Virus record (IMG/VR): IMGVR_UViG_3300024346_000015
Location: 58,344-122,343 of that record
DNA length: 64,000 nt
Reading direction: 5' to 3' (one strand)
From: a virus
Shown here in pieces: positions 8,381 through 47,970 of this stretch; positions within the stretch are counted from its first letter, which is position 1; every line of letters starts with the position of its first letter. The notes below the pieces were generated by a model. It saw only the letters and a program-made list of their open reading frames with translations, was not told where the DNA came from and did no database searches. The translations under genes were made by a program, and so were the position numbers.

Positions 8381-8413
8381 AATATATTCTCTCTTCTCAT
8401 AGTCAATACAAGT

Positions 8414-8442
8414 ATTATACAATACTCAACAGGGTTTGGCAA
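8414..8442 (-). promoter_or_regulatory. Early promoter (TTGCCA-17-TATAAT)
   Basis: TTGCCA at 8437-8442 and TATAAT at 8414-8419 on the minus strand, followed by ATACTTGTATTG, a small dyad shared by five promoters of this window. Confidence 0.8.
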
Positions 8443-8620
8443 CTACTTTTTTAAACTTTCTTCGAGATTTCGACCATTGTTTCATTGGTTTGTTGAACAA
8501 GATCTCTTCGGTGGTGTTCACTTTGATGTAACCGGCAAGTTGTCCTGCCTTGTTTACAATGTAAGTGTGATTGGGAATGGTTTGGTCACCCCAATCGGTG
8601 ACCTCTTGTAAGTACTCCAT
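8426..8620 (-). CDS. Small hypothetical protein
   Basis: The 64-residue ORF (MEYLQEVTDWGDQTIPNHTY) has a mixed beta-like N-terminal half and a Lys/Arg-rich tail. Its 3' end carries the next gene's early promoter. It begins one base after the start of the neighbour's stop codon, so the two are probably co-translated. No family recognised. Confidence 0.6.
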   Translation of the reverse strand: MEYLQEVTDWGDQTIPNHTYIVNKAGQLAGYIKVNTTEEILFNKPMKQWSKSRRKFKKVVAKPC

Positions 8621-8919
8621 TATGATCTCTTCTTACGTGGTTTGAAACCAAGGGTTTCCATAGCTTCCATCGGACTAGTAGTTCGAACCAACTCAACGTA
8701 CTGTTCAACAGTAGAGTTCTTAACTAGGTAGTTAACCCACGACTTCCACGGTTTTGAACCATACTTGAATCGTGCGATGAACGTGCGTTCTGGCATACCG
8801 TGCCAAGATGGGTGACAGTTCGGAGACACTTGCTCCATAGTACGTGAACCTTCGAACGCACCTTGATACATAAGGTACATACCGTCCCAACTGAACTTCT
8901 CTTTATCAAATCTAGTCAT
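8620..8919 (-). CDS. Conserved small phage protein, unknown
   Basis: The start at 8919 (MTRFDKEKFSWDGMYLMYQG) follows the usual early leader and yields 99 residues. The opening resembles small proteins I recall from marine T4-like phages ('K.PWDGMYL.Y.G'), with FIARFKYGSKPWKSWVNYLV after it. Function unknown. Confidence 0.65.
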   Translation of the reverse strand: MTRFDKEKFSWDGMYLMYQGAFEGSRTMEQVSPNCHPSWHGMPERTFIARFKYGSKPWKSWVNYLVKNSTVEQYVELVRTTSPMEAMETLGFKPRKKRS

Positions 8920-8950
8920 AATCATCTCTCTTCTCATATTCAATACAAGT

Positions 8951-8979
8951 ATTATACTGTACTGGCCAGTAAATGGCAA
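8951..8979 (-). promoter_or_regulatory. Early promoter (TTGCCA-17-TATAAT)
   Basis: TTGCCA at 8974-8979 and TATAAT at 8951-8956. The spacer contains the perfect 12-bp palindrome TACTGGCCAGTA; the ATACTTGTATTG dyad follows the -10. Confidence 0.85.
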
Positions 8980-8998
8980 GCGTCTATGATAAAAAAAG

Positions 8999-9006
8999 TA
9001 TAAATA
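8999..9006 (+). promoter_or_regulatory. Late promoter motif TATAAATA, rightward (first)
   Basis: A perfect T4 late -10 element 35 bases before the ATG at 9042, a distance that leaves room for a leader. Confidence 0.65.
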
Positions 9007-9028
9007 AATGGGTATAACGAGAAAAAGG

Positions 9029-9036
9029 TATAAATA
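9029..9036 (+). promoter_or_regulatory. Late promoter motif TATAAATA, rightward (second)
   Basis: A second perfect element ending 5 bases before the ATG at 9042. If used, the transcript would be nearly leaderless. Confidence 0.5.
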
Positions 9037-9041
9037 ACAGT

Positions 9042-9305
9042 ATGTCAAACGAACTATTCGATTTCGGGTTTACCCTTGTAGATGAGAACGAACTGGAGGT
9101 TGTGCAACAGGCGCAAGCAACAGTCACGTCAGCATCAACCTCGGCAACCGAAACACAGGACAAATTAGACAAATTATTCAATGCGATTCAACCATTGTTA
9201 AACAATCTCAAGGCGAACCCAGAGAAAGAGTATATCCTCTGGCCCAATCGTACTGAGAAGATAGAACAATTTGAGTCTCACATTCAAGGTATTTACAAAG
9301 GGTAA
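9042..9305 (+). CDS. Conserved marine T4-like phage protein, unknown
   Basis: The 87-residue protein opens MSNELFDFGFTLVDENELEV, has an Ala/Thr/Ser-rich middle, and ends with LKANPEKEYILWPNR and a short helix. I recall this composite pattern as widely conserved in marine T4-like phages, where its function is not known. With the next gene it forms the only rightward unit between 3.4 kb and the right edge. Confidence 0.75.
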   Translation: MSNELFDFGFTLVDENELEVVQQAQATVTSASTSATETQDKLDKLFNAIQPLLNNLKANPEKEYILWPNRTEKIEQFESHIQGIYKG

Positions 9306-9308
9306 GGT

Positions 9309-10211
9309 ATGTTTTACAAAGATGACAGTGAGTTATATGTTCAATCGACCAGATCAGATGGTGAACTCAATCTGAGGTACGTTACGCCTGAACTGAAGGA
9401 ACGTACCTACCGACACATCAATAGTCGTATTGAGAACAGTAAGCGAAACAAGAATCTCCTTACTCATTACAAGAACGCTGAGATTCATATGGTGGCGGAG
9501 ATAATCAATCGTGTTCCCATGTATTGTAATGTCATCGCATCTCGCGGATACAGTAATATACTGTTCGTTGGTCATTTCAACGCATCTCAATATAAGTGGT
9601 ACCTGAAGACTAGACCAGCAGATCCAGGCACTAGACTGTACCATGAACTACCACCCGAACGTGATGGCCAAGAGAACTTCGTTGACCTAAACATCTGTCA
9701 CCAATTTGTTCCTATCATTTGGGACATGTATGGTTACAAACCCAATATGGACTATGTCCAACCACCTCATTCACGTAACTTGGGTATGATGCACGAGTTG
9801 TATCAGAAGTTCCAACTAAACAGAGTCCGGTCGGATCAACAGTACCGTCACGGTGATACTCAGTTTGTTCTATCTGATTGGGACGAAAACCCGTATGACG
9901 CAGTAGTATTTGCGGGTGTACCTGAAGCGGTAGGTAAAGATTCTTTCTCTATGACAGACGTGGTAGATAGTCTAGGTGCATATGTAACGGATGATTGTGA
10001 GTTTATTGATCTATGGGGAAATGAGTCTCACGACTACCGATTCTATGGCAATGAAGCGGATCATCTACCGACTGATAACAATGTCGCTACTGCATTCCGC
10101 ATTAGAGGGGATTGGGACAAACAGGTTAGGAATGAAGGTCGTCCTGAAGAGTACGCACTAATGTGTAAAAACATCAATGCGTACCGCAAGAGTTTTATCT
10201 TAGAACCTTAA
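9309..10211 (+). CDS. Hypothetical protein, 300 residues
   Basis: This soluble-looking protein (MFYKDDSELYVQSTRSDGEL) has no signal peptide, membrane segment or motif I can name. It contains repeated Asp/Tyr/His-rich stretches such as YGYKPNMDYVQPPHSR and LSDWDENPYDAVVFAGVPEA, the latter Rossmann-like. AAGG precedes the ATG, which comes 3 bases after the end of the upstream gene. Co-transcription behind two late-promoter motifs suggests late expression. It converges with the P-loop gene, overlapping its end by 4 bases. Confidence 0.75.
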   Translation: MFYKDDSELYVQSTRSDGELNLRYVTPELKERTYRHINSRIENSKRNKNLLTHYKNAEIHMVAEIINRVPMYCNVIASRGYSNILFVGHFNASQYKWYLKTRPADPGTRLYHELPPERDGQENFVDLNICHQFVPIIWDMYGYKPNMDYVQPPHSRNLGMMHELYQKFQLNRVRSDQQYRHGDTQFVLSDWDENPYDAVVFAGVPEAVGKDSFSMTDVVDSLGAYVTDDCEFIDLWGNESHDYRFYGNEADHLPTDNNVATAFRIRGDWDKQVRNEGRPEEYALMCKNINAYRKSFILEP

Positions 10212-11080
10212 CCCCAAGTAACTGCTTTAGGAACGTAAGAGGATATCTTTGATTTGATATCCTTTTCTAATTTGTCAACTGGAGTGGCTGGTTTACCTTG
10301 ACGTTTTGCGTAGAAGTATTTCGCATCTTTTAAGAATGAACCACCCCCACCAGATACTTTAAGATCAGCATCGACACCGACCTTGTTGAATGCGAATACG
10401 ATATCCCCATCCATATATCTCTTCAACGTTGAACCCATGTTAACGATGTCAGCCATAGTCTGTGATGCACCACGGTGTGTGTTGACTAGGATCTCTGCGG
10501 GTACAGTACGAGAACGTCTGAGGTTCTGTGCCTTTGCCACTTCGATATCGTTGACTACCCATACGATATGGATGTTCTTCTTGTCGTAACCCACGTTAGT
10601 CAACATACGAGATAGGTTACCTAACTTCTGTAGATCTTTCAGAGTTGTATCGAAAACAAGATTAGGTTTACGATCAGGTGCAGCTGCAAGGACACCACGC
10701 ATCAATACTTTCTCTTTACGTGTATCCAGTTGCAGTACGTTAGCAATGATGTCATGTAACTTACCAACGTTCTCCGGATCCTTTAGATTAGACGCGATCG
10801 CTTCGATATCCATACCAGTCTCCGCCTTGACTCTCTTACGAATCAACGGTGACTTTGCAGAAGCAAGTTTGAGGGAATCAACGTCCATGACTTTACCCTC
10901 AAGACCGACTAGGTTGGATAGGACGAATCCTTTACCAGAACCCGCACCGCCTGCCATGATGACAACGTTACCGAAGTTGGGGTAAGCTTTACCGCCAAAC
11001 GTAATGAGTTTTTCCATCAGAATCTCTGCGGATTCTTGGAGTTCTAGTTCTTCTGTGAGGTGTTCGTTGAATGTTTTCAT
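10208..11080 (-). CDS. P-loop kinase-like protein with capsid-targeting-like N-terminus
   Basis: The 290-residue product carries a Walker A motif AGGAGSGKG at about 43-51 and later LVFDTTLKDLQKLGNLSRML and an LRRSRTVP arginine stretch, the general layout of zeta-toxin or kinase P-loop proteins. The N-terminus MKTFNEHLTEELEL resembles the T4 internal-protein capsid-targeting peptide (MKTYQEFIAEA), with a possible gp21-type cleavage after LTE. TATAAATA ends 6 bases before the start, so the gene is probably late and possibly near-leaderless. A packaged kinase is inferred; substrate unknown. Confidence 0.7.
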   Translation of the reverse strand: MKTFNEHLTEELELQESAEILMEKLITFGGKAYPNFGNVVIMAGGAGSGKGFVLSNLVGLEGKVMDVDSLKLASAKSPLIRKRVKAETGMDIEAIASNLKDPENVGKLHDIIANVLQLDTRKEKVLMRGVLAAAPDRKPNLVFDTTLKDLQKLGNLSRMLTNVGYDKKNIHIVWVVNDIEVAKAQNLRRSRTVPAEILVNTHRGASQTMADIVNMGSTLKRYMDGDIVFAFNKVGVDADLKVSGGGGSFLKDAKYFYAKRQGKPATPVDKLEKDIKSKISSYVPKAVTWG

Positions 11081-36731: not shown

Positions 36732-36893
36732 TCACTTTGCTATACGCTTTAGTACTTTTTCAATATCTTTACGTTTCTTCTTACGGTCATACTTCTTACG
36801 CATTACTACGGTATCGGAATCATCTCCCGCACCCGCAACAGACGAAGTAGTCGTACCACCCATGTCTTCAATAAACTTTTTAAAATTCTTCAT
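36732..36893 (-). CDS. Small basic protein with capsid-targeting-like N-terminus
   Basis: This 53-residue ORF has AGAGG 5 bases before its ATG. It begins MKNFKKFIEDMGGTTTSS, very like the T4 internal-protein targeting peptide, and ends in a Lys/Arg-rich helix (MRKKYDRKKKRKDIEKVLKR) fit for DNA binding. A small packaged basic protein is the likely role, inferred from the N-terminus. Confidence 0.6.
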   Translation of the reverse strand: MKNFKKFIEDMGGTTTSSVAGAGDDSDTVVMRKKYDRKKKRKDIEKVLKRIAK

Positions 36894-36905
36894 ATCTACC
36901 TCTAC

Positions 36906-37514
36906 TTATACTCGTTTTAACAGGGTGGCCCAAGATTTATCTTCGACCAGACTCCCGTCTTTAGCGAACGCAGTTACACGGTAAGTAAATCGTTCTATTG
37001 GTTCAAATGCGGACAAGATGTCTTGTTCGAATTGTTTAACGACATGATGAATGGGTTCCTCATCTGTTCTCATAACAAGAATGTATTCGGCACCGTTATC
37101 GTCTGCCTTCTGAAAGTATTGAGCAATGCTTCGGTGATTACTACCGGCATCAAATATCCATAGGTCGTGGATGTTTTCTATCTCTTGAGTGTAATCCTTT
37201 ATGTCTGCGATAACACCTTGGAATCGTCCACCGAATATACCACGGATGACATGCATGTTCTCTCTACTGTAACCGTATCGATCATCATCAACACTGGTAA
37301 ACCTAACTTGACCATCGTGTTGTAACCACAATAAAGAACTGTGTCCGGCTCCAAATCCTAGTTCAACTACACTGGTCGCCCCAGTACGATCGTAGACTTT
37401 ATCTATCATGTCTACGGTAGTGGTATGTAAGGACATGTATGCTTCGAGAACTTTACCTTGGTTACCTAGTGCGATATACTCGTCTACTAGATTATCAACA
37501 GACAATGTGGTCAT
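36906..37514 (-). CDS. Class I methyltransferase-like protein
   Basis: In the 202-residue protein TSVVELGFGAGHSSLLWLQH is SAM motif I and VRFTSVDDDRYGYSRENMHV the acidic motif, with HDLWIFDAGSNHRSIAQYFQ in the catalytic region. The target is unknown. It overlaps the next gene by 4 bases. Confidence 0.65.
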   Translation of the reverse strand: MTTLSVDNLVDEYIALGNQGKVLEAYMSLHTTTVDMIDKVYDRTGATSVVELGFGAGHSSLLWLQHDGQVRFTSVDDDRYGYSRENMHVIRGIFGGRFQGVIADIKDYTQEIENIHDLWIFDAGSNHRSIAQYFQKADDNGAEYILVMRTDEEPIHHVVKQFEQDILSAFEPIERFTYRVTAFAKDGSLVEDKSWATLLKRV

Positions 37515-38104
37515 TTAGTGATATCCGATATGGTTACTAATACTTTGTGTCCAGACTTCATGTGAGTACCCTCGTAGATATTGAGTCCAAGAATACTGTC
37601 TATAGGAAGTGTCTTCTCTATACGTAACTGGTCACCCTTGCGAACTACCTCTGCACATTGGGTAGTCATTGAATCGTACTTCATACGATAGATGCCTGGC
37701 CCGATCTCTTCACCATCGATCATGAACCATTGGTGATCTTCTGCCAGACAATCTAGAATGTCGATACCTGTCTTCTCGTGGATCTTCATCAGGTTCGAAT
37801 CTGACAACTCACCATGTTCTTTAATCAATGCGAGTGCGGCACCATATCGTGCAACTACCGACTGACCGCCAGGCACCTTTGCCATGATTCGTTTTAAATT
37901 GAAAACAAGTCTATGGAAGGGGGTGTAGTGACTACGATACGCTTCACGGTCATCTGTCAAGTTGGTACTGAAATCCTTATTCTTCTTACCGTCTTTGTCA
38001 ATGATACCTGCCTTGAACGCATCGGTATCCTCGAAAGGGGTAACTAAGAGTTTGAGGAATCTAATTGTATAGACTAGATCCGCAGCTGATTTTAAAATTC
38101 CCAT
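37511..38104 (-). CDS. Conserved marine T4-like phage protein, unknown
   Basis: The 197-residue protein opens MGILKSAADLVYTIRFLKLL and continues TPFEDTDAFKAGIIDKDGKK and HRLVFNLKRIMAKVPGG, a sequence I recall as conserved in cyanophage-type T4-like viruses. The C-terminal half resembles a small beta domain. Late expression is suggested by the TATAAATA at 38130-38137. Structural or assembly roles are plausible. Confidence 0.7.
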   Translation of the reverse strand: MGILKSAADLVYTIRFLKLLVTPFEDTDAFKAGIIDKDGKKNKDFSTNLTDDREAYRSHYTPFHRLVFNLKRIMAKVPGGQSVVARYGAALALIKEHGELSDSNLMKIHEKTGIDILDCLAEDHQWFMIDGEEIGPGIYRMKYDSMTTQCAEVVRKGDQLRIEKTLPIDSILGLNIYEGTHMKSGHKVLVTISDITK

Positions 38105-38129
38105 TATCTTTTCTCTAAAGGTTTATCTT

Positions 38130-38137
38130 TATTTATA
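38130..38137 (-). promoter_or_regulatory. Late promoter motif TATAAATA
   Basis: A perfect late element 25 bases before the ATG at 38104, straddling the stop of the upstream gene. Confidence 0.7.
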
Positions 38138-38501
38138 GTCTGGCGATTTCACGTAGTGCTTGAATCGCAACTTTATCCATTTCAATACCCGTTATTTCAT
38201 CATTTTTGATGGCACGGAGATATATTAGGAAGGGTTTGAGTGTGGGCCAGTGTTCTACTACGATTTTCTGTGCCAACATCTCAACGGCAGGTTCAGTACC
38301 GAATACATTGAGTAGGACAATAAGGTGATTTAGGATTAGTCTCTCTGACAAATCTCCCCCACCATAGTACCTATTCAACAATCGTTTGATGTACTTGAAT
38401 CGTTTTAGATCTTCGAAGAACTCGTCTTCGTCAATACAGGTGGGGTTACGATAATGCTTTGCTGCATATAACGTGAAGTTATTTCTGTTTAGTTCCATCA
38501 T
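38133..38501 (-). CDS. Conserved T4-like phage protein (DUF7207-like)
   Basis: The 122-residue helical protein (MELNRNNFTLYAAKHYRNPT) contains DEDEFFEDLKRFKYIKRLLN, LILNHLIVLLNVFG and EMDKVAIQALREIARL, which matches my memory of the DUF7207 family, common in marine T4-like phages. No function known. Its start overlaps the end of the glycosyltransferase gene. Confidence 0.7.
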   Translation of the reverse strand: MMELNRNNFTLYAAKHYRNPTCIDEDEFFEDLKRFKYIKRLLNRYYGGGDLSERLILNHLIVLLNVFGTEPAVEMLAQKIVVEHWPTLKPFLIYLRAIKNDEITGIEMDKVAIQALREIARL

Positions 38502-39504
38502 TAACCAATCTCAAAGATTTATAAAATGTGTCTTCATATTTAGTCTCTAGGTTAGACTCTATAATATAGTCCATCAGAGTTACCATCCACTCATAAGAAA
38601 ACCTACCATCCGGAATATTCTCTTTCATTTTGTTCATGACGACTCCAGTGGGGTCAGGTGAGTACAAGTATGTGAACTCGTCCTCTTCGTCATGATAGGC
38701 GACATCTAGTTCACCTCTCACACCTTTCTGTTTGATCTCCCACCATTGCATAGTGTCTTCACCTACCAACAATTTGGGATCATAATTTATATGGGACGCA
38801 CCTTTACGTGAGAAGAATACCATACGATTGAAGAGATCCCGATAACCGTTTTTGTTCTTTGTCGGATTGGACATCTTCCAACATAGTTTTTCGAACGCAA
38901 CTCTTGACTTTGCCCATTCCATCATGGTATTATCGTCACACCAATCGTAGACCATCTCATGATCACTAAACTCAGGGCCGCGACACCGTTGCTTTCTCCA
39001 CCAGTTCGTCCAATCTGTGGGTAGGCATTCATTTATCTCTTTATCTAGTTTTGCCCATCCTTTAGTTCGAGACCACGATTCGACCACATCGTTACCATTT
39101 TTGTCCTTAGTAAACTGAGTCGCTACTTTACTCCACTGATTGACAAGGGCAACTACATCTGGAGGAGACGGGTGTTCAGATAACTGTCGGTAGAACTCTA
39201 CGCCATATTCAGTGACTATATCGTCACCGTCAACGGCAACCATATGTTCATGAGTAGACTCAAGGAACAATCGAATTAACGAGTTTTTTCCGGTAGATGG
39301 AGTTCCATCAGATTCGGTAACATAGTGTTCTATACCCATGAACCAACAGTAGTCGGTCGCACGTTCCACGTAATCCTTATCCAGAGAGTTGATAACTACA
39401 ATAAGATCTTCGCGGGGAATCGTTCGCAAGTGTTTTACAAACAAGCAATTGTCGGGGTTGTGACGGAGGGATTTATCCCTAGATAGTAAGACATAATATT
39501 TCAT
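38479..39504 (-). CDS. Glycosyltransferase-like protein with DGDD motif
   Basis: The 341-residue protein begins MKYYVLLSRDKSLRHNPDNC and has STGKNSLIRLFLESTHEHMVAVDGDDIV, where VDGDD resembles the DxD motif of GT2-type enzymes. The rest is Trp-rich and unlike common families. It stands apart from the main glycan cluster, among late genes. Confidence 0.5.
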   Translation of the reverse strand: MKYYVLLSRDKSLRHNPDNCLFVKHLRTIPREDLIVVINSLDKDYVERATDYCWFMGIEHYVTESDGTPSTGKNSLIRLFLESTHEHMVAVDGDDIVTEYGVEFYRQLSEHPSPPDVVALVNQWSKVATQFTKDKNGNDVVESWSRTKGWAKLDKEINECLPTDWTNWWRKQRCRGPEFSDHEMVYDWCDDNTMMEWAKSRVAFEKLCWKMSNPTKNKNGYRDLFNRMVFFSRKGASHINYDPKLLVGEDTMQWWEIKQKGVRGELDVAYHDEEDEFTYLYSPDPTGVVMNKMKENIPDGRFSYEWMVTLMDYIIESNLETKYEDTFYKSLRLVNDGTKQK

Positions 39505-39534
39505 GTAACTATCTAGGGATATGTTTGGACAGGT

Positions 39535-39873
39535 TTATCCTACGATTTCATTCATTTGAGCTAGTAGGTCTTTCTTAGAACGTCTACGATCTAATTCCAC
39601 ACCCATAGTACGTCCCAGTGCTTCTAGTTCGATCTTAGTCATTTCTTCTAACGACTTACCACCTACAGGTGCTTCAGTCAACATAGACACATCAGCACCA
39701 CCCAGTTTGGCGTTAACAAGAAGATCGATCTCATCCTGTTCGCCATGGAATTCATTGATCTGTGCTTGAGTGAAACCACTCGATATAAACAGTTCTCCGG
39801 TGTTCGGATCTTCCCAACCGTTTAGGGTTGGTACTGCGTCTGGACACCAGCCTGGAGCTCTTAATTTAGACAT
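39535..39873 (-). CDS. Conserved T4-like phage protein with HeH/Rho_N-like C-terminus
   Basis: The 112-residue protein opens MSKLRAPGWCPDAVPTLNGW and ends with MTKIELEALGRTMGVELDRRRSKKDLLAQM, typical of the HeH/SAP-like helix-extended-loop-helix domain ('ELEA.GR..GVELDRR..K..L'). I recall it as conserved in marine T4-like phages beside late structural genes. The C-terminus may bind nucleic acid. Confidence 0.7.
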   Translation of the reverse strand: MSKLRAPGWCPDAVPTLNGWEDPNTGELFISSGFTQAQINEFHGEQDEIDLLVNAKLGGADVSMLTEAPVGGKSLEEMTKIELEALGRTMGVELDRRRSKKDLLAQMNEIVG

Positions 39874-39890
39874 AATCTTTTACCTTTGTT

Positions 39891-40847
39891 TTATGATTTA
39901 CGGAGTTGTTCCAAAGTACGTTGAATCAGATCAGAATGTTCCTTAACAGGTTTTGGTGCAGCGTCACCCTGTCCAGTATCGCCTGGCAGTTTCTTGGGTG
40001 ATGGGCCACCTTTACCAGCAGCAGTAGTAACCTTAACCGCATCTTCGTAACTGTCTTCAAGTTTCTTATCAGACTTAGCGTGTAACTCAGCGAATGCTTT
40101 CTCTTGAGGAGACTGAGTCTCACCGTGTTCTTCGCCAGGTGCTTTGCTTTCCAACAGACCCATGAGTTCACTGATCAATGCGTCAGATGATTCTTTAAAT
40201 GATTCTTTTTTCATTGCTTTACCAATTGCCTTACGTCTCTTATGTAGGAACTTATCAGAAGAATCGACATCACCATCGTTATCAATGTCTTTGTCTTTAC
40301 GATCTTTGAACTTCTTCTTAGCAGCTTTAGGGTCTGCCTTGTCAAGTCCTTCACCGTCATCTTCGTCATCGTTAGATGCGTCTTCTTTGACATCATCTTT
40401 CTCAACGTCTTTCTCTAGTTCGGTCTTCTCGTCTTCTTTCTTCTTTTTCTTCTTAGGCTTATCTTCAGACTCTTCACCAGAATCTTTCTCTTCGCCTTCG
40501 TCTTCGTCTTCGTCTTTCTCTACGTCAACGTCTTTACCAGCAGGAACTGCTTTCTTACCGGACTCTTCTTCGTCATCCGACTTCTTCTTACCTACAGCAG
40601 CTTTCTTCAGAAGTTCAGGATCGATGTCTTCGTTCTGACGTTTCAGTACCGCAGCAACCTGTGGATGCTGAGATAGACCCTTGGCGAGTTTCTCGATTGT
40701 TTTAACTGCACCAGAGTAGTTACCACCAGCGTAACGTTTATCGGATGCAATCCCTATGGCTTGTTTGATAACTTTCGCATCAAACTTCGCTTCAGAGACA
40801 ACCTCAAGATATGCCTCTTTCATTTTGTTAATATCTTGACTGTTCAT
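39891..40847 (-). CDS. Highly charged internal head-like protein
   Basis: The 318-residue protein has a helical N-terminus (MNSQDINKMKEAYLEVVSEA), a long Lys/Glu/Asp-rich disordered middle (about 85-190), an EF-hand/dockerin-like DIDNDGDVDSSDKFLHKRRK segment at about 190-210, and a C-terminal part with several L-x-E sites. VSE/A near residue 19 fits a gp21-type cleavage site. I recall such proteins in marine T4-like phages. Prohead core or internal protein is the best guess. Confidence 0.6.
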   Translation of the reverse strand: MNSQDINKMKEAYLEVVSEAKFDAKVIKQAIGIASDKRYAGGNYSGAVKTIEKLAKGLSQHPQVAAVLKRQNEDIDPELLKKAAVGKKKSDDEEESGKKAVPAGKDVDVEKDEDEDEGEEKDSGEESEDKPKKKKKKEDEKTELEKDVEKDDVKEDASNDDEDDGEGLDKADPKAAKKKFKDRKDKDIDNDGDVDSSDKFLHKRRKAIGKAMKKESFKESSDALISELMGLLESKAPGEEHGETQSPQEKAFAELHAKSDKKLEDSYEDAVKVTTAAGKGGPSPKKLPGDTGQGDAAPKPVKEHSDLIQRTLEQLRKS

Positions 40848-40855
40848 GTCGTCTC

Positions 40856-41143
40856 CTATTGACTTAACCAGAAGTAGTCTGTCACAACACCAACTGTCGC
40901 GATAGCTACCATGTATACTATTGAGTTAATTATTTTAATGGTGTGACCTTGGTCATCCACCTTTCTTTCTATATCATCTAACTTCTGAGAGAACTTATTC
41001 ATTCTCTCGAAATGGTTATTGTGGTTGTTCTCTATGCCGATAAGTTTTTCTTCAGCACGAGCCAATGCAATCATGGCATCAGAGAGTTTATCAATCTTCT
41101 CCTCGATACGATCTAATCGCTTTTGGTTTGTATCTGTTGCCAT
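40856..41143 (-). CDS. Coiled-coil protein with C-terminal membrane segment, XhlA-like
   Basis: The 95-residue protein is a coiled coil (RLDRIEEKIDKLSDAMIALA ... ERMNKFSQKLDDIERKVDDQ) ending with a membrane segment, IINSIVYMVAIATVGVVTDY. This is the layout of XhlA-like holin-associated proteins. Lysis or envelope function is possible. A late motif precedes it. Confidence 0.6.
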   Translation of the reverse strand: MATDTNQKRLDRIEEKIDKLSDAMIALARAEEKLIGIENNHNNHFERMNKFSQKLDDIERKVDDQGHTIKIINSIVYMVAIATVGVVTDYFWLSQ

Positions 41144-41185
41144 TACTTCATCGTTCCCATATGTTAAAAGTCGGTTGACTTATAC

Positions 41186-41193
41186 TATTTATA
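41186..41193 (-). promoter_or_regulatory. Late promoter motif TATAAATA
   Basis: A perfect late element in the 45-base gap upstream of the coiled-coil protein gene (start 41143), overlapping the stop of the cupin-like gene. Confidence 0.6.
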
Positions 41194-41461
41194 CTTCTAA
41201 GATACGCAGTATTAAGGTATCTGTTCCTTTTATTAATCGGTGGTACTCCATCTTAGTGATGGTGTAGCTATGTCCTTCTAATAATTCGATTGGTTCTTCG
41301 TTGTCCATTTGAAGTTCCCAACCATATCCTTCCATGACTATAATCCTTCGATCTCGTTTGTCCCTATGCCAGACTAGTTCCTCGTCAGCAACATTGGGAT
41401 CAAATGTCCTAAGTCTACTACCATCATGTAAGTTTAACTCAAGATAAGGACGATCTACCAA
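41189..41461 (-). CDS. Small cupin-like protein
   Basis: The 90-residue product has the beta-strand pattern ELVWHRDKRDRRIIVMEGYGWELQMDNE and IELLEGHSYTITKMEYHRLI, a compact cupin with two histidines, one per conserved block. I recall similar small proteins next to head genes in cyanophage-type viruses. Whether it binds metal is unclear. Confidence 0.6.
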   Translation of the reverse strand: MVDRPYLELNLHDGSRLRTFDPNVADEELVWHRDKRDRRIIVMEGYGWELQMDNEEPIELLEGHSYTITKMEYHRLIKGTDTLILRILEV

Positions 41462-41964
41462 AAGAAACTACCGCCTCCGGAGAGACCTAGTTGTTTTGCG
41501 TATCGCGGTAAACGACATGCCCAGTATGCAGCGGTCATACGATCATTCTGTTGGTCACACTTGTGACGTGCAGCGAATGATTTGCGTGCCTTGGGGTCGT
41601 TTAGTTTAACTTTAAGTCCGGTGGTGTCACCCCAAGAGATCTTCTTGATGTTACCTGTAGAAGGATCTTTGACGTGTACGTAATACTTCTTAGGGCCACC
41701 GGCTTTGGGTTTACCCAGTTCTGGTTCTTTCTCTTCGAAGATGCAATCTAATGCAACGTTCTCTCCATTGAACTCAGCAAACTCACCTAGATTACCTTCC
41801 ATGATGTCTACTTCGGATGGATCAATCTCTAGGTTACCAGCATAGTAATCTTCACGACACTGTCTCCAGTAATCGAAATACGCCTCTGATCCAACCCGAT
41901 AGATATTACTCTCTACTAGGTTAGATTCAGATCCGCAGTTACAATGGTCGTTAAATGATTTCAT
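41455..41964 (-). CDS. DUF5872-like protein with capsid-targeting-like N-terminus
   Basis: The 169-residue protein begins MKSFNDHCNCGSESNLVE/S, a possible targeting peptide with L-V-E cleavage, and ends with YYVHVKDPSTGNIKKISWGD, KLNDPKARKSFAARHKCDQQ and AAYWACRLPRYAKQLG. The last block is the DUF5872-like domain, widespread in T4-type phages, with conserved Cys and Arg. Probably a virion-packaged protein. Confidence 0.65.
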   Translation of the reverse strand: MKSFNDHCNCGSESNLVESNIYRVGSEAYFDYWRQCREDYYAGNLEIDPSEVDIMEGNLGEFAEFNGENVALDCIFEEKEPELGKPKAGGPKKYYVHVKDPSTGNIKKISWGDTTGLKVKLNDPKARKSFAARHKCDQQNDRMTAAYWACRLPRYAKQLGLSGGGSFFW

Positions 41965-43151
41965 TTCAGTTTCAGTGCTTTCTGTAAATCCTGTGGACTC
42001 TGAGATGCCAAGTCCGCGAACTTCAACTTCTGATCGTTTCGTTTAATGCTATTATACTTCATCAGTACCGCTTTGGCAAGGTTTTGTTTCAAGTTTACTT
42101 TCTTACCGTTCTTGAACTCGATCACTCCACCCTTAGATAGATCAGCAACTCTACGCAACTGAACAATGATGTTCTTGTCTGCCGCTTTACGGTCATCTGC
42201 CGTTGCCTTCACATCGTCATCGTCAGCAGAGTCCTTACCACGTTTATCCATAGCACGGAATGCATCACGTTTCGCACTCTCTAGAATACTGTCTTCAAAC
42301 AACTTTGCAGCTTGTTTCATACTTATGGTTTTGATATCACCGAATTGGTTCTTGGTTCTAACAGTAATCTTACGTCCACTCATATCGAAATCAAGTGTGT
42401 AGGTCTTACCGTCTTTACCACGAACGTTCTTGAGTGCTTCGTTGACTGCGGGTTTGTCGTGAGTGTAACCTAACTTAGCATACTTGTCATGATCCGCCTG
42501 AGTATCTGCATCGTACTCTTTACCAGTTTCGGGATCATACATCTTGTGAGGTTTGAACGCTTCTTCCAACGATTCTTTGATGATCTTAACTGGATATAAC
42601 GCAGAACCGCCAGTCTTGGGATCGATCTGCATAGCGTATGGAACGCCTTTCATCTTAGTCTTATAATCTTTATGAATCTTGGCATAGTTCTTCGCGGTCA
42701 TCTCGATCTCGCCCTTGGCATTTAACTTGCCCATTGCTTCATCAAGAACTTCTTCGTTACGCTTACCTTTCTGGTATGCGTTGTACTCTTTACGTCTCTC
42801 TGCATCTTTCTTCTTCTCAGCAGGAGTCATCTGAGATACAGGTTTCTTACCCTCTACCATCGCAGATTCAATGTACATGTTCAGTTCGTAACGTCTGTTA
42901 TCTAAGTTCGCAACTTGGATATGTACATTACGGTTCTTCTTTTGAGTTGAAAGAATGTATTTGTTGGTCTTACCCGAAGATGGTTTCTTCGGCCCCATTG
43001 CAACCTTGTTATCGATATCATCAGTAGATACGACATAACCTTTCTTCTTCGCATATGCATATGCGTGTTGCATAGCACCAGAGAAGTCTTTGTGGTATAG
43101 GTCGTAACCAGACGAAGATTTCGCTTCTCTAATTTGATTGAAAGATTTCAT
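41961..43151 (-). CDS. Internal head-type protein with capsid-targeting-like N-terminus
   Basis: The 396-residue protein opens MKSFNQIREAKSSSG, where IRE/A matches the gp21 protease consensus exactly. It is Lys-rich and apparently multi-domain: an alpha/beta region to about 95, repeated L-x-E sites (VLDEA, SLEEAF), and a C-terminal region with VIEFKNGKKVNLKQNLAKAV. No enzyme motif. A prohead internal protein processed by the head protease is likely. Confidence 0.6.
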   Translation of the reverse strand: MKSFNQIREAKSSSGYDLYHKDFSGAMQHAYAYAKKKGYVVSTDDIDNKVAMGPKKPSSGKTNKYILSTQKKNRNVHIQVANLDNRRYELNMYIESAMVEGKKPVSQMTPAEKKKDAERRKEYNAYQKGKRNEEVLDEAMGKLNAKGEIEMTAKNYAKIHKDYKTKMKGVPYAMQIDPKTGGSALYPVKIIKESLEEAFKPHKMYDPETGKEYDADTQADHDKYAKLGYTHDKPAVNEALKNVRGKDGKTYTLDFDMSGRKITVRTKNQFGDIKTISMKQAAKLFEDSILESAKRDAFRAMDKRGKDSADDDDVKATADDRKAADKNIIVQLRRVADLSKGGVIEFKNGKKVNLKQNLAKAVLMKYNSIKRNDQKLKFADLASQSPQDLQKALKLK

Positions 43152-43153
43152 TG

Positions 43154-43426
43154 TTATGCCAGATCCTTATCGTGATTTAGTGTGCCTTTTTTCTTTTTGA
43201 CTATGAACGCATTTACTCGTGCATGTCCCCATTGTTGTGGAGTGGTGCCTGGTCTGTGACCCGTCTTCCATGCCGCTACTCCACGGTTATATACCTTCTT
43301 GAGTGTAGCAGGCGATATACCAGACTTCTTTGCCTTCGCAGCAATACCGTCCGAACCTTCCTTTACGTCTACCTCATCGTACATAGAATATCGTTTTTCT
43401 TCTAAGTATTTCTTGAAATTAATCAT
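43154..43426 (-). CDS. Small DUF5824-like protein with capsid-targeting-like N-terminus
   Basis: The 90-residue protein starts MINFKKYLEEKRYSMYDE and contains KKSGISPATLKKVYNRGVAA with AWKTGHRPGTTPQQWGHARV, a domain (DUF5824-like) I recall in many phages. The N-terminus is T4-internal-protein-like. The domain looks DNA-binding (helix-turn-helix-like), but no function is proven. Confidence 0.65.
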   Translation of the reverse strand: MINFKKYLEEKRYSMYDEVDVKEGSDGIAAKAKKSGISPATLKKVYNRGVAAWKTGHRPGTTPQQWGHARVNAFIVKKKKGTLNHDKDLA

Positions 43427-45159
43427 TTGGTTTCTCTATTCTTTGCTTTGGTTGCGGCCAATCTTGCACGATCCATCATACGATCATGTTTTGCCTTGTC
43501 AGCTTCCTTCTCACGGTCAATGGCATCTTTTGCGGCAGAGACATCGTCTTCACCCAGTAGACCGTGGAGGACTTTTCTATCCATACCACTATACGTATTG
43601 GCGATCTTTTGTGCATAATAGTCAGTACTATGTCGCAACTTACCACCGTTCTCTTTCTTTTTACGTACCAATAAATCTTTTAATGTCTTCAATGCGTGTT
43701 GATACTGCTTCTTATTCGTAGTAACCGACTTCAACTTGTTTAACATTCTACCCTCTGTTGTTTCAGTGGTAATAACATTAGAGGTAGTTTTGAAGTTTTT
43801 CTTACGCATTATTGTTTTGTTAACAACTTCGAACTCATCCTTCTTACGGTCATAGTTTATGACAACCGGAAGATTCAAATCAGTTTGTAAATCTTTAATG
43901 ACCGCTTCACTGTCAGGATTCTGACGAATGTTCTTCGCCTTCCTCTTTGCGATCTTCTTGAATACACGTTGTAACTCAGCCACCGTGATAGGTGGATCAT
44001 TACGTTTGTCATTCATACGGTCAGCGAAATGCCGTGTGAACTCGATATCGACATCGAACTTTGCGAGCAGTCGGTCTGCGAACTTCTCAAGGTCGTTGAG
44101 TTGTTTTTGACTGACTTCTTCGTACATGTCTTTGAATTGTTTGGTGTACTTGGATGGTTTCGTTTTCGCGGTAGCATCGCCTGGAGCGGGTTTATAGGCT
44201 GAATCATCATCGTCTGCTTTCTTCCCGTGTTTCTTAAAGTGTGCATCACGTGCAACCTTAGTGGACTTCTTGAGACCAGAGTGATAACGTGCGGGTTGAG
44301 TACCTTTGCGATCCTTGATATCAGAATCTTGTGCTTCGACTAATTCAATTGCGTCAATCCACTTGCGATACTTCTTATCCCCGCACTCTACGATTACGTA
44401 GTTGGAACCCAGAAACTTTACCACGCCAAGTTCTTCAGACTCTTTAACGACAACTGAATCACCCACTTGGAAAAGATCCCCCTGCACATACTGTTCTCTT
44501 GTTTCAGAAACAGGCGCGAGTTCAACGTGGTTCTTGAAAGATCGTTCTTCCGATAACCCCATACCCTTACGTACATCATTGAATAAAGACCGTGCGTCCT
44601 TGTTGGACATAGTTCTAGGAACACCCTGAGAGAAACTAACGAAGTCATTTTCGGATGCATTCGCTCGTTGTTTGGATGCGGACATACCTTCAACACCTTC
44701 CGCATCGGGATCTCTTGCTCCCGCAGATACTATCTTGATACTTTTAAAGTTGTAGAAACCGTGTCTAGCTTGTTTCGCATTGTATTTGTTGAGTAACGTT
44801 TCGAACTCTCGAATACGATCTGCACCGACAACCATAGTTACATTGCGGTAACCTTGGTCATACAATGATGCAGCTACATCAAATACGTTTTTGATCTTTT
44901 TGTCCATCATAACATTCCGTGCATGTTTTGGGAACATCTTACGGATATGTTTAACTTTCTGAGAATATGTCAACGGATCCTTTTTAGGATTCTGTGACTG
45001 AGACACAAACACCTTGTAGTCTGATTTACCAGACTTAGATGCCAGTGTATCCATTACCTTACCATGACCAATTGTTGGAGGATTCATTCTACCAAAGGTA
45101 AAATAACATTCTCTCTCTTCTTCAATCAGGTATTGTGAGAAATTTTTAAGATTCTTCAC
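43423..45159 (-). CDS. Multi-domain nucleotidyltransferase-like protein, packaged type
   Basis: The GTG start at 45159 has GGGG upstream and gives 578 residues beginning MKNLKNFSQYLIEEERECYF, a targeting-type N-terminus with LIE. FTFGRMNPPTIGHGKVMDTL and TMVVGADRIREFETLLNKYN (to about 165) are the cytidylyltransferase/HIGH-superfamily core. A linker with SDIKDRKGTQPARYHSGLKK and a C-terminal domain with DIEFTRHFADRMNDKRNDPP follow, as I recall from marine T4-like phages. It may act on nucleotides or cofactors in the infected cell after ejection. Confidence 0.7.
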   Translation of the reverse strand: MKNLKNFSQYLIEEERECYFTFGRMNPPTIGHGKVMDTLASKSGKSDYKVFVSQSQNPKKDPLTYSQKVKHIRKMFPKHARNVMMDKKIKNVFDVAASLYDQGYRNVTMVVGADRIREFETLLNKYNAKQARHGFYNFKSIKIVSAGARDPDAEGVEGMSASKQRANASENDFVSFSQGVPRTMSNKDARSLFNDVRKGMGLSEERSFKNHVELAPVSETREQYVQGDLFQVGDSVVVKESEELGVVKFLGSNYVIVECGDKKYRKWIDAIELVEAQDSDIKDRKGTQPARYHSGLKKSTKVARDAHFKKHGKKADDDDSAYKPAPGDATAKTKPSKYTKQFKDMYEEVSQKQLNDLEKFADRLLAKFDVDIEFTRHFADRMNDKRNDPPITVAELQRVFKKIAKRKAKNIRQNPDSEAVIKDLQTDLNLPVVINYDRKKDEFEVVNKTIMRKKNFKTTSNVITTETTEGRMLNKLKSVTTNKKQYQHALKTLKDLLVRKKKENGGKLRHSTDYYAQKIANTYSGMDRKVLHGLLGEDDVSAAKDAIDREKEADKAKHDRMMDRARLAATKAKNRETK

Positions 45160-45613
45160 TCTTGCCCCTCTTACGTGCCAATTCTTGTTTGCGAACTTTG
45201 GGTAACAATTTCTTCGCAAGTTTATCGATTTTAGGTTTCATTTTGTCCAGACGTTTTTCGATTTCCATTCGTCTAGCCATATTTAGGTCGGCTTTACCGA
45301 CACCTTTTGTCAACTTTTTGGCAAGCATATTACGTGCTTGTTTCTTCGCACGTTTCTTTAGGGTATCCATATTAGCAATCTTACGTGCAGCTCTTGCACG
45401 ACCTATTGCGATCTTGGGGGCGAGTTTCTTCATTTGACGCGCCTTCTTCAGACGCTGTTGAATATTAAGAGCCGCTTGGAGTTCTACCTCTTCACTGTTG
45501 TTACCAGTGGGTATATCCTTTTTGCGTTTCTTACTATTGAGCGCGAGTTGATCATCTCCGGTCTGAGTATAATCGACTGCTATGAAATCTTTAAAACCTA
45601 ACTTCTTAGGCAT
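45146..45613 (-). CDS. Basic internal protein, conserved in T4-like phages
   Basis: The 155-residue protein is strongly basic and helical, with RLKKARQMKKLAPKIAIGRA, ARKIANMDTLKKRAKKQARN and KRLDKMKPKIDKLAKKLLPK. I recall the 'IGRARAA.K.A.MD.LK.RA.KQAR' block as conserved in marine T4-like phages. The N-terminus MPKKLGFKDFIAVD is targeting-like. DNA-condensing internal head protein is the likely role. Confidence 0.65.
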   Translation of the reverse strand: MPKKLGFKDFIAVDYTQTGDDQLALNSKKRKKDIPTGNNSEEVELQAALNIQQRLKKARQMKKLAPKIAIGRARAARKIANMDTLKKRAKKQARNMLAKKLTKGVGKADLNMARRMEIEKRLDKMKPKIDKLAKKLLPKVRKQELARKRGKSEES

Positions 45614-45637
45614 AACGTCCTCTTTTGGTTTTTCCCA

Positions 45638-46858
45638 TTAATTACGACTAGGTTTGTCCCAGCCTTTAACAACATCGGGCGAAAAGTTATTATAGGAGAA
45701 TTCCATCCTATTAACCAATTTCACCGCATCACCACCAAGTGTATCAATAGCGACATATCCTTCTTCACCAGTGGTCTTATAACCATTGGTAGTCTTAACG
45801 AACGTGTCGATATTTTTTAAACTATCAAGTTTATTTATAAGAATTAGTTTCGCAAGAACTATGTTTTTTTGCAATTCGAACATCTGAACTAACGATCTTT
45901 GGTTTTTTTGTGAGAAGAATGTCAGTATATCATCTAACTTCTGTTGTTGTACACCCTTACCTTTCTCGGTCTTTCTCTTATCGATCTCTTTCTGGAACTT
46001 CTTATTGATCCAACCGATAAGACCACGAACGTGCGCTTTAGTGTTCGTAATGACCATTCCTTCCCGCACAAAAGTGTTGTTGTACTGTTCGATCAACTGT
46101 GCGAGATCTTGTTTACTTTCTAGTTCACGTAACGTTGTACCCGATACTTTGTTGAACAGTTGACCGCACGTAGTCAGGTAACCATTCACGGCTTCAGTTT
46201 CTTTCTTGGTCAGTGTTGCCCCTTGTTCGTTAGACAACATCGCATCCTGTGACCATACGTTAGTAGACTTACGGAACTTAGACACGTCCACACCATACTG
46301 CGCTTTCATACTTTCGAACGTATCACCAGTATAGGTTGTGTGCCATACAATACCGATCTTCGCCTTCTTGACTTCCGCAGCCTGTTCTACAGGTACCGCA
46401 TAGATGATTGTGTTTGGGTGAAAGACAACATACGACTTACCGTCAATCTTCTTGGTCTCTAGGTCTGATTTTGAGAACAAGAAATCTCCTTGGACGACAC
46501 CCTTGATACCCAGAGAGGGAAGATACTCAAGTGCATCTTTCATCTTACTGGCCAGATCACCAGACATATCCGCATCAATTTCTGCGTTAGTCTTATAGAT
46601 CTTTGGGTTCTTTGCAAAGATACCTTTCTTCGCCACAAAGAACTTACCGTCAGATGGATCTTGTCCACAGAAGATTGCAGGCGCACCGTCCCACTTGACC
46701 GATACTTTACTCGCCTTCTTACCACCCAACATGTCACGCATATCACGTAACGCATTGATTGCCGAACGAGTACCAGCGACACCCCCATAGAGAACCTTAT
46801 CCTCAATGTGGGTCATGTGGGTATTTTTCTGTTCTGTTATAAAGTTTTTAAAGTCCAT
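45638..46858 (-). CDS. Ligase-like nucleotidyltransferase (DUF6267-like), packaged type
   Basis: The 406-residue protein begins MDFKNFITEQKNTHM, with ITE as possible cleavage site. KVSVKWDGAPAIFCG has the K-x-D-G motif I of DNA/RNA ligases and capping enzymes; GVVQGDFLFSKSDLE resembles motif III and FVREGMVITNTKAHVRG motif IV (EGxV). I recall the family as DUF6267 in marine T4-like phages. Adenylation-dependent nucleic acid ligation or capping is thus possible, delivered from the virion. Activity is unproven. Confidence 0.65.
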   Translation of the reverse strand: MDFKNFITEQKNTHMTHIEDKVLYGGVAGTRSAINALRDMRDMLGGKKASKVSVKWDGAPAIFCGQDPSDGKFFVAKKGIFAKNPKIYKTNAEIDADMSGDLASKMKDALEYLPSLGIKGVVQGDFLFSKSDLETKKIDGKSYVVFHPNTIIYAVPVEQAAEVKKAKIGIVWHTTYTGDTFESMKAQYGVDVSKFRKSTNVWSQDAMLSNEQGATLTKKETEAVNGYLTTCGQLFNKVSGTTLRELESKQDLAQLIEQYNNTFVREGMVITNTKAHVRGLIGWINKKFQKEIDKRKTEKGKGVQQQKLDDILTFFSQKNQRSLVQMFELQKNIVLAKLILINKLDSLKNIDTFVKTTNGYKTTGEEGYVAIDTLGGDAVKLVNRMEFSYNNFSPDVVKGWDKPSRN

Positions 46859-47970
46859 TAGAATTTCAACGTGGTGAAGTCACACATCATTCGTGTGGGG
46901 TAACCATCTTTGCCTTGAGTGTCTCGTATATTTAGTTTGAATCTATAGTACGGTGAACTGAGTTCCATGTCAATACGTTTACCTCGACCTGTCTTACCAC
47001 CGTAGTGAACGGTACAAGTAGTAACCTTTGATGCAGCTTGCATCGCAGCGAGATCCATCTTCTTGGAATGAACGTTCTTCTTCATCTTATGGATGACATG
47101 GTAACCGTGACCGATACCACTTTCGAGTAATGCCTTCATCGCCTGTTTGTCTGGTCGGGTAACGACTTTACCACCTTTGGTCTTAACATCGTCATTGAAT
47201 ATACCACAGAATCTCTCGTTGTCAATACCGAATAGATTGAGTAACTTCAGACCATCAGCGTTCTGGATCTTACCTTCTTTGATTTCTTTGGGGGTTAACT
47301 TGGTACGGACACCTACGTTGAAGAACGTGGTGGTAGACTCGAACTTGAGACTGAGATAGACTTTGGTTCCGTCTTCCTTTATCAGGGTAACATCAGTAAC
47401 ACTAGAACCGATATCTGTACCCACACCTTTAGTGTTAGTCAAAACGATATTAGCGCCAGTGAAGTTCAATGGTCTCTTGGTGTTCTCTCCACCCACAACA
47501 TTGATCTTGAGTGTCTTGGAACCACTGAGATCATACAACTCATCAAGATGCATGATCGCCTTGAGATTACCCTCATCTTTTACGGCATCCTTACCTTCCG
47601 CATACCAAGTATTCAGATCATTTGCAAACGAAGTCTCAAACAGATTACCTCTATTCTTCACACCACGATTACCACTAGAACCATTACCATACTTGATACG
47701 TACAGTCTTTACTCCAGCGTTACGTTTGATGTCACCGATATCCTCTACCGCCTTGAAGGTACGAGCTATGTTGATATCTTTCTGTTTTTTCATGTCGATG
47801 TTGATCGGTGCTTCTACACCTTTGTTCGACAAGTACTTGAATAGTGCGAGTACATCTGCAACACTATCATGTGGCCAGTCCGCCAGAGTGGTTGAGATTT
47901 CATCTTCCGTTTTAGGGAAGAATGAATATGCTTCCCCCAACATCTCGACATGTTGTTTAAATCGTAACAT
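46858..47970 (-). CDS. Virion-type protein of unknown fold, capsid-targeting-like N-terminus
   Basis: The 370-residue protein opens MLRFKQHVEMLGEAYSFFPK; LGE/A at about residue 13 is a canonical gp21-type site. SSGNRGVKNRGNLFETSFAND, an EDGTKVYLSLKFEST strand pair with acidic and Lys residues, and CTVHYGGKTGRGKRIDMEL suggest a restriction-endonuclease-like core, but the motif is not secure. It abuts the ligase-like gene by one base and lies behind a late motif. Confidence 0.55.
   Translation of the reverse strand: MLRFKQHVEMLGEAYSFFPKTEDEISTTLADWPHDSVADVLALFKYLSNKGVEAPINIDMKKQKDINIARTFKAVEDIGDIKRNAGVKTVRIKYGNGSSGNRGVKNRGNLFETSFANDLNTWYAEGKDAVKDEGNLKAIMHLDELYDLSGSKTLKINVVGGENTKRPLNFTGANIVLTNTKGVGTDIGSSVTDVTLIKEDGTKVYLSLKFESTTTFFNVGVRTKLTPKEIKEGKIQNADGLKLLNLFGIDNERFCGIFNDDVKTKGGKVVTRPDKQAMKALLESGIGHGYHVIHKMKKNVHSKKMDLAAMQAASKVTTCTVHYGGKTGRGKRIDMELSSPYYRFKLNIRDTQGKDGYPTRMMCDFTTLKF

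Follow-up and report, generated by a model that had tools for sequence, protein, structure and literature searches.

Genes of the locus and their N-termini

The 64,000-nucleotide stretch analysed here (the window) comprises bases 58344-122343 of the 122,343-base virus record IMGVR_UViG_3300024346_000015, which is a contig of a marine T4-like myovirus. Its region 36732-47970 holds a block of genes whose products begin with short leaders resembling those of the T4 internal proteins (IPs). A simple gene call over the whole record gave 141 genes, some of them with wrong starts; the start of g116 was extended by nine residues by hand. A T4-type head module is encoded in the part of the record outside the window and includes homologues of gp23 (phrog_138, E 1.2e-160), the gp21 protease (phrog_207; Pfam PF03420, E 1.3e-41), the core protein gp22 (phrog_237) and the portal gp20 (phrog_213). 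Megablast of positions 36732-47970 against 50,697 phage records returned no match, and a tRNA search of the window found none. By its DUF6267 protein (g115), the named phage closest to the contig is C48C1 (67% identity), followed by Stenotrophomonas phage DLP_6 (46%) and Methylophilales phage Melnitz (45.5%), while cyanophages and Pelagibacter phage HTVC008M stay below 40%. The records of C48C1, Melnitz and HTVC008M place all three in Kyanoviridae.

The T4 internal proteins begin with MKTYQEFIAEA (IPII and IPIII) or MKTFKEFTSTTTPVSTITEA (IPI). A T4 review ascribes the targeting of IPIII chiefly to residues 4 and 7 and its processing to residues 8 and 10, and gives L/I-x-E as the rule of the protease gp21 (PMC9026906). 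The earlier note on this DNA had listed eight starts of this kind, and all eight were confirmed in the sequence, all on the minus strand. The whole T4 layout, F/Y-x-x-F/Y/H-I/L-x-E, is found in four of them (g062, g112, g113 and g115), g102 has the layout with Asp as its last residue, and g110, g111 and g116 are variants that fit it in part, with the first aromatic residue and a later (L/I)-x-E. The statement that several leaders obey the gp21 rule also held, as L/I-x-E occurs in g115, g113, g112, g062, g116 and g111, and g110 has L-V-E. A cut before Ala, Ser or a similar residue was borne out for g116 (Ala), g111 (Ala) and g110 (Ser), but the four best leaders are followed by Gln (g115), Glu (g113), Lys (g112) and Glu (g062), none of them Ala, Gly or Ser.

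In the following, a slash marks the predicted cut. The gene g116 (46858-47970) encodes 370 aa of phrog_8438, with the leader MLRFKQHVEMLGE/A, reading MLRFKQHVEMLGEA, and then a restriction endonuclease-like predicted fold. The gene g115 (45638-46858) encodes the DUF6267 protein of 406 aa (PF19782, E 5e-105), with the leader MDFKNFITE/Q and then ligase-like motifs. The product of g114 (45146-45613) is a basic protein of 155 aa with the leader-like start MPKKLGFKDFIAVD, which has no Glu at the cut position. The gene g113 (43423-45159) has a GTG start and encodes 578 aa, with the leader MKNLKNFSQYLIE/E and an NMNAT/cytidylyltransferase-like domain, and g112 (43154-43426) encodes 90 aa with the leader MINFKKYLEE/K. 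The Pfam domain DUF5824 is divided over these two genes, its N half in residues 289-352 of g113 and its C half in residues 31-88 of g112, each protein having its own leader. The g111 protein (41961-43151; 396 aa) carries the leader MKSFNQIRE/A and six more gp21-rule sites, and its C-terminal end shows a weak match (E 1.5e-4) to phrog_696 'major head protein'.

The g110 protein (41455-41964; 169 aa) has the long leader MKSFNDHCNCGSESNLVE/S (MKSFNDHC...LVE/S), and g108 (39891-40847) encodes a highly charged protein of 318 aa with a possible leader MNSQDINKMKEAYLEVVSE/A (...YLEVVSE/A), of which residues 185-213 match the virion protein gp92 of cyanophage S-SCSM1 (E 1e-5). The smallest member, g102 (36732-36893; 53 aa), consists of the leader MKNFKKFIED and a basic tail and is internal-protein-like; its relatives carry a V-x-G-x-G-D-D-S-like motif ahead of a Lys-rich tail, and the same motif occurs in one Melnitz protein. 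Two candidates lie apart from the block. The first, g062 (10208-11080; 290 aa), is a zeta-toxin-like P-loop kinase with the leader MKTFNEHLTE/E. The second, g010 (73 aa), lies outside the window at record positions 9128-9349; it sits next to the gp21 gene, where T4 has gene 68, and its leader MKTFKQIREA is nearly identical to MKSFNQIREA of g111. The starts of g114, g108 and g010 were missing from the earlier note.

The T4 leaders are about 10 residues long, with aromatic residues at 4 and 7, I/L at 8 and E at 10. This register of aromatics and I/L is shared by g112 (F4, Y7, L8), g102 (F4, F7, I8) and, with His at position 7, g062 (F4, H7, L8). The phage also resembles T4 in encoding gp21 and gp22, in having a small basic member (here g102) and in its variable cargo. 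It differs in that several candidates are proteins of 290-578 aa with enzyme-like domains, that most of the genes lie in one block, and that some leaders lie -1 to +3 residues out of register or are longer, the g115 leader being one residue shorter and the g113 leader three residues longer than in T4.

Conservation of the leaders and of the predicted cut junction

A nine-residue leader profile was built from the relatives in four or five families, with the tested family always left out. Eight of the 11 candidates scored (g115, g113, g062, g114, g102, g112, g116 and g010) outscored all 130 non-candidate genes, and their p values against interior windows ranged from 0/1896 to 0.0142 (0.0011 for g102; 0.0011 for g114, with a profile score of 10.3). 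Six of these eight top scorers lie within g102-g116, which is 15 of the 141 genes (p = 1.3e-5).

The earlier note had proposed aligning the leaders across related phages. A strict regular expression for the leader was applied to 240 loci of relatives (233 from IMG/VR and 7 from named phages), with g108 outside this test. It matched 226 of 375 distinct N-termini in eight leader families (about 16 in shuffles); for nine families of neighbouring genes the figure was 6 of 210 (about 2 in shuffles). By family, the matches were 32/43 (g062), 10/12 (g102), 5/24 (g110), 7/29 (g111), 19/48 (g112), 60/71 (g113), 75/98 (g115) and 18/50 (g116), and g114, counted separately, gave 2/48. The neighbours gave 0/7 (g100), 0/7 (g101), 0/6 (g103), 0/32 (g104), 5/37 (g105), 0/7 (g106), 0/30 (g107), 0/51 (g109) and 1/33 (g117). 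The collections for g115, g116 and g062 carry a mild bias, as one of the six search patterns for each was derived from the leader. In the g110 family the strict expression describes few members, but M(K/R)xFxxH...L(V/I)E is present in 20 of 24 distinct N-termini.

A blind scan of the 9,182 open reading frames (ORFs) in these loci gave 300 leader ORFs in 27 clusters. Among the 5,510 ORFs with a ribosome-binding-site-like start, 189 distinct leader N-termini scored at least 8 bits, compared with a mean of 10.6 with permuted profile columns (20 runs, maximum 64) and 11.8 with shuffled, uncollapsed N-termini; this support is partly circular, because most matches fall in the training families. T4 IPII was recovered although T4 was outside the training set, and it alone of the T4 internal proteins was among the matches listed, IPI and IPIII being absent from them. 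A DNA pattern of one strict leader form (ATGAAR...TTY...TTYATH...GAR) had no match in the contig, the pattern being too strict.

A chance likeness of short N-termini could account for g111 (p 0.10), g110 (p 0.10) and g108 (p 0.07), whose leaders are individually non-significant. As an explanation of the whole set we consider it negligible, as it is strongly disfavoured by the contrast between leader and neighbouring families, by the clustering, by the blind scan (189 against about 11) and by the junction rule described below.

In the relatives of g116, the conserved domain opens with (A/M/G)Y-x-(F/I/V)(F/I/V)P. Eighteen of the 50 distinct N-termini are leaderless, with Met directly before the domain (M/AY), including two that had been called upstream (loci L147 and L167), and the other 32 carry 5-31 extra residues that are widely dissimilar. 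All 32 leader-bearing forms have Glu at P1, the residue before the junction, with Leu (27), Val (3) or Ile (2) at P3; because the sequences within one family are related, these are not 32 independent events, a reservation that belongs with those gathered in the next section. The residue after the junction (P1') is Ala in 44, Met in 4 and Gly in 2 of the 50. A cut at this junction would yield the N-terminus that the leaderless forms would have after removal of Met. Since leader-bearing and leaderless forms meet at the same junction, the leader behaves as a removable module.

The DUF6267 family shows a comparable pattern. Among 32 aligned proteins that are 67-93% identical to the window protein, all have E9 and nearly all have F3, and positions 2, 4 and 5 vary. 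The junction Glu is kept in the distant relatives of Melnitz (NFSKYITE/D), DLP_6 (KFTQFLAE/S) and HTVC008M (YNDLLVE/D), and the DUF6267 proteins of Syn1, P-HM2 and S-CRM01 start at the domain without a leader. The phage's own gp23 carries GFMTE/A, aligned with SFLTE/A of T4, which we take to be the cut position in T4 gp23. We also considered that the leader is merely the first helix of each fold, and rejected this: the predicted local distance difference test score (pLDDT) of the AlphaFold models stays under 50 throughout residues 1-14 of g116 and residues 1-16 of g115, and those g116 relatives that lack a leader start right at the junction.

Counting gp21-rule sites as [ILVMF]xE[AGS] against shuffled sequences gave 13 versus 3.5 for gp22, 7 versus 0.91 for g111 and 22 versus 8.5 for the 11 cargo candidates together (15 versus about 7.6 when g111 is left out), and the 126 genes belonging to neither the head nor the cargo set had 104 versus 107. 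With so many such sites, g111 resembles a core-type protein that is cut repeatedly, and it is possibly a prohead core-like protein of this sort.

This bears on an alternative in which the leaders do target the prohead core, but the proteins serve head assembly, whether they then remain in the head or leave it, and none of them acts in the host after delivery. It would agree with the site richness of g111, which resembles that of the scaffold gp22, with the position of g010 beside the protease gene, and with the effect of T4 IPIII on head assembly (PMC9026906). We regard it as unlikely, since an assembly factor needs neither the enzyme-like domains with conserved residues carried by the candidates, nor a leader-bearing adenylate kinase such as occurs in a relative, nor a variable slot.

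Virion proteins of cyanophages and the proposed packaging

Virion proteins reported for cyanomyoviruses resemble the candidates. The data on S-CREM2 and S-SCSM1 below come from the two papers (PMC10665884, PMC9602691) and, for the S-SCSM1 virion labels, from the GenBank record. Table 3 of the S-CREM2 paper gives 52 virion proteins (PMC10665884), and among these are proteins that begin with leaders: the cytidylyltransferase gp154 (MKNFSSFLTE/A), the kinase gp14 (MKRFDAFLTE/E), gp13 (MKDLHSFLTE/Q), the S-adenosylmethionine (SAM) hydrolase gp6 (MKDFDSFLEE/F) and gp136 (MQTFSMFFSE/D). At a 4-bit cut-off of the anchored profile, 5 of the 52 virion proteins score as against 2 of the 167 other proteins (p 0.009), so that five of the seven leader-scoring proteins are reported in virions; this threshold is one of several, and other definitions gave p 0.012-0.29 (0.29 with a broad unanchored expression, 0.024-0.14 with the unanchored profile).

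In S-SCSM1, the five adjacent genes 89-93 are all virion-labelled, including the NMNAT-like gp91 (MKSFLQFLKE/A), the only one of them with a canonical leader. Genes 89-97 of that phage form a block between primase/replication genes and nrdAB. The homologues of g113 are S-CREM2 gp154 and S-SCSM1 gp91, both reported virion proteins. A kinase of S-CRM01 is also cited as a virion protein (PMC10665884), and the kinase gene adjoining the DUF6267 gene of that phage (start MISFDQFLSE/K) presumably encodes it. The virion proteins of S-CREM2, S-SCSM1 and S-CRM01 (NMNAT-like, SAM hydrolase, APH/ChoK-like kinase, Cas9-like) are alike to ours in including g113 homologues and in the kind of leader. The cyanomyoviruses differ in that the five DUF6267 relatives compared are leaderless, that the genes of gp6 and gp12-15 are found at other places of the S-CREM2 genome, and that an N-terminal packaging signal is not mentioned in the parts of the virion papers available (PMC10665884, PMC9602691).

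Three further virion proteins are of interest for their N-termini. S-CREM2 gp12 (record 7704-10313, minus strand), annotated as Cas9-like and virion-reported, has RFASFMAE/A at residues 18-25. The reported virion protein gp160 of S-CREM2 (L092, record 128342-129235) has near its N-terminus GATGFTGAAAPEGPVAGYDPLM, which resembles the stretch GADGFTGAAAPGGPNAGFDPVM that follows the cut in gp23, and a similar stretch stands near the N-terminus of the virion protein gp97 of S-SCSM1 (L086, record 93121-93306). Judged from this likeness, the stretch is perhaps a second docking mimic, and P-HM2 171 may be similar to gp160 and gp97 in it.

Another alternative holds that the candidates are merely abundant late proteins, that their detection in virions is contamination, and that the leader serves stability, membrane docking or the start of translation. 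The authors of both papers themselves name contamination as possible, for S-CREM2 by co-purification (PMC10665884) and likewise for S-SCSM1 (PMC9602691), and the leader test in S-SCSM1 is non-significant. We hold it to be very improbable, as abundance or contamination leaves unexplained both the Glu at P1 in all 32 leader-bearing g116 relatives and the agreement with the site in the gp23 of this phage. Moreover, the leaderless DUF6267 relatives S-CREM2 gp87 and S-SCSM1 gp257, both shorter and distant, are not among the virion proteins given in these sources.

The reading that we prefer, at a probability of roughly 0.8, is that these N-termini act as T4-type capsid-targeting sequences, cut by gp21, and that the cargo passes to the next host with the DNA. 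The presence of T4-type targeting leaders and gp21-type cut sites in this phage is supported by the sequence comparisons; docking, cutting and ejection, and all the cargo activities, are what we infer from them. Late in infection, the leader, mainly through its two aromatic positions, would dock the protein to the gp22 prohead core. The gp21 homologue would then cut after the Glu of (L/I)-x-E and free the mature protein inside the head, the DNA would be packaged around the cargo, and the cargo would enter the next host with it.

Among these steps, targeting and cleavage are the predictions with good support. Ejection into the host would follow the example of the T4 internal proteins and of Alt, an ADP-ribosyltransferase that is packaged and ejected and whose short N-terminal propeptide is cut by gp21 (PMC9026906). 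Alt is alike in being an enzyme carried as packaged, gp21-cut cargo; the enzyme classes here are different (no search for an Alt homologue was made). The Dar system of phage P1, a defence against restriction, offers a further parallel, as DarB reaches the head through a packaging signal at its N-terminus; it differs in that, as that paper states, BLAST finds no consensus among the Dar N-termini (PMC9024508).

Several points weigh against this reading or limit it. The rule L/I-x-E is not obeyed by g102 (Asp) or g114 (no Glu), and Asp at position 10 of T4 IPIII keeps targeting but blocks processing (PMC9026906); from their sequences, we predict that g102 and g114 are targeted and remain uncut at the leader end, for g114 only perhaps. 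The residues after the cut in the four best leaders, the individual p values of g111, g110 and g108, and the choice of threshold in S-CREM2 have been given above. Nearly half of the excess of sites in the cargo candidates comes from g111, and no other single cargo protein is significant. Packaging of DUF6267 proteins is not universal, since leaderless cyanophage relatives exist.

On the side of the virions, S-CREM2 gp175 and gp48 score as leader proteins and yet went undetected in virions, and S-SCSM1 gp30 (MKTFKQFMSE/S) has no virion label despite its leader. Conversely, S-SCSM1 gp90, gp92, gp93 and gp97 are virion-labelled without a canonical leader. The link between leader and virion label in S-SCSM1 was not significant (2/48 versus 3/234; p 0.14-0.41 anchored, 0.053 with the broad unanchored expression, 0.61 with the strict one and 0.20-0.53 with the unanchored profile). 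The claim of the earlier note that at least eight different proteins are packaged and delivered stands in part. T4-type leaders and cut sites occur together with encoded gp21, gp22 and gp23, and cyanophage homologues of g113 and other proteins with this kind of leader are reported in virions, but the claim as worded goes beyond the evidence, as g102 has Asp10, g110 and g111 rest on family conservation, and the four best leaders are followed by residues other than Ala or Ser.

Predicted cargo and the variable slot

The AlphaFold model of g116 (mean pLDDT 84.3) gave, in VIA-align, HinP1I first (Z 10.6, root-mean-square deviation 4.4, 199 residues aligned) and MspI second (Z 8.6), with an Hjc-type resolvase at Z 5.3 and unrelated folds from 5.0 below them. 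Residues D193, S207 and K209 are conserved without exception across 34 sequences. We take D...(E/Q/S)xK to be the signature of a PD-(D/E)XK site, which these three residues would suit. Judged from the model, g116 likely has a type II restriction endonuclease-like fold of the HinP1I/MspI kind.

In the g115 family, the motifs K(W/Y/I/M)DG, QGD, EG(Y/F)(V/T) and K(L/F)V(D/N)R follow one another in all 10 of the divergent sequences aligned, and g115 itself has KWDG, QGD, EGYV and KLVNR. We take this to be the order of ligase motifs I (KxDG), III, IV (EGxV) and V. The g115 model (mean pLDDT 70.5) matched DNA/RNA ligases in VIA-align at Z 4.7-5.4, below unrelated helical folds of up to 8.1. Foldseek returned nothing at E <= 0.001 for the g116 and g115 models. 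The best match of the DUF6267 alignment to PDB sequences, gamma-SNAP (E 0.0049), covered a helical part and was judged spurious.

The g113 protein is cytidylyltransferase-like (PF01467, E 8.6e-6; phrog_395, E 6.4e-68), and its PDB sequence search had no match at E <= 1; g062 is zeta-toxin-like (PF06414, E 1.2e-8). PADLOC (5 proteins) and NCBIfam (9 proteins) gave no matches. The likely cargo comprises a restriction-endonuclease-fold protein, a ligase-motif DUF6267 protein, an NMNAT/cytidylyltransferase-like protein and a zeta-toxin-like kinase.

The slot upstream of DUF6267 holds an ORF of at least 150 aa in 139 of 151 loci, and the 94 distinct proteins form 15 clusters, with a strict leader in 27 of the 94. 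In relative L005 (93% DUF6267 identity), the place of g116 is taken by a 430-aa protein that is unrelated to it and has a leader of its own, MFSFQQFLSE/E, and contigs L102 and L107 have g116 at 100% identity. The slot proteins include several unrelated families of about 350-450 aa (e.g. L005, L008, L013, L038 and L084), some of them leader-bearing. Three clusters have a D...SxK motif in 35/37, 4/4 and 3/3 of their proteins, and the single protein L079 has one too. The motif is scarce in two leader clusters (2/16 and 0/5) and in a cluster with one leader (0/16), and for this reason we do not claim that all slot proteins are nucleases. Among the other blind-scan clusters, one protein has a weak HAD-type match and several of 330-450 aa are without a Pfam match. 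At locus L176, a 191-aa ORF carries an adenylate kinase (PF00406, E 3.4e-46, domain from residue 19) behind the leader MKTFKKHLFE/A.

The cargo set is small and largely syntenic (restriction-fold protein, DUF6267, NMNAT-like protein, DUF5824 halves and basic proteins, with the zeta-toxin-like kinase elsewhere). As a tentative wider view, to which we give slightly less than an even chance, the locus would be a cargo island of marine T4-like phages, in which gp21-cut tags deliver exchangeable nuclease, ligase-like and nicotinamide adenine dinucleotide (NAD)- or nucleotide-handling enzymes at time zero, and the polymorphic slot upstream of DUF6267 would serve an arms race against host defence or rival phages. 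Internal-protein genes of the T-even phages are polymorphic, as is this slot.

The address tag is that of T4, and what is new is which proteins are carried and how their genes are arranged, for the most part in synteny and in part exchangeably. The general idea is not new, because the T4 review already states that the capsid targeting sequence may be a route by which T4-like phages incorporate various proteins (PMC9026906). Among the matches listed by our literature search, which mostly did not cover subscription literature, no paper named such leaders in marine T4-like phages, and a search on DUF6267 found no paper.

The finding suggests a sequence-level reason why the virion proteomes of cyanophages contain kinases, NMNAT-like proteins and other enzymes, for which the authors of those studies were unable to separate packaging from contamination. 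It points to two unannotated families, DUF6267 with its ligase-like motifs and phrog_8438 with its restriction-endonuclease fold, as possible first-minute effectors. The leader together with the junction Glu would give a simple, testable rule to predict the injected proteins of marine myoviruses.

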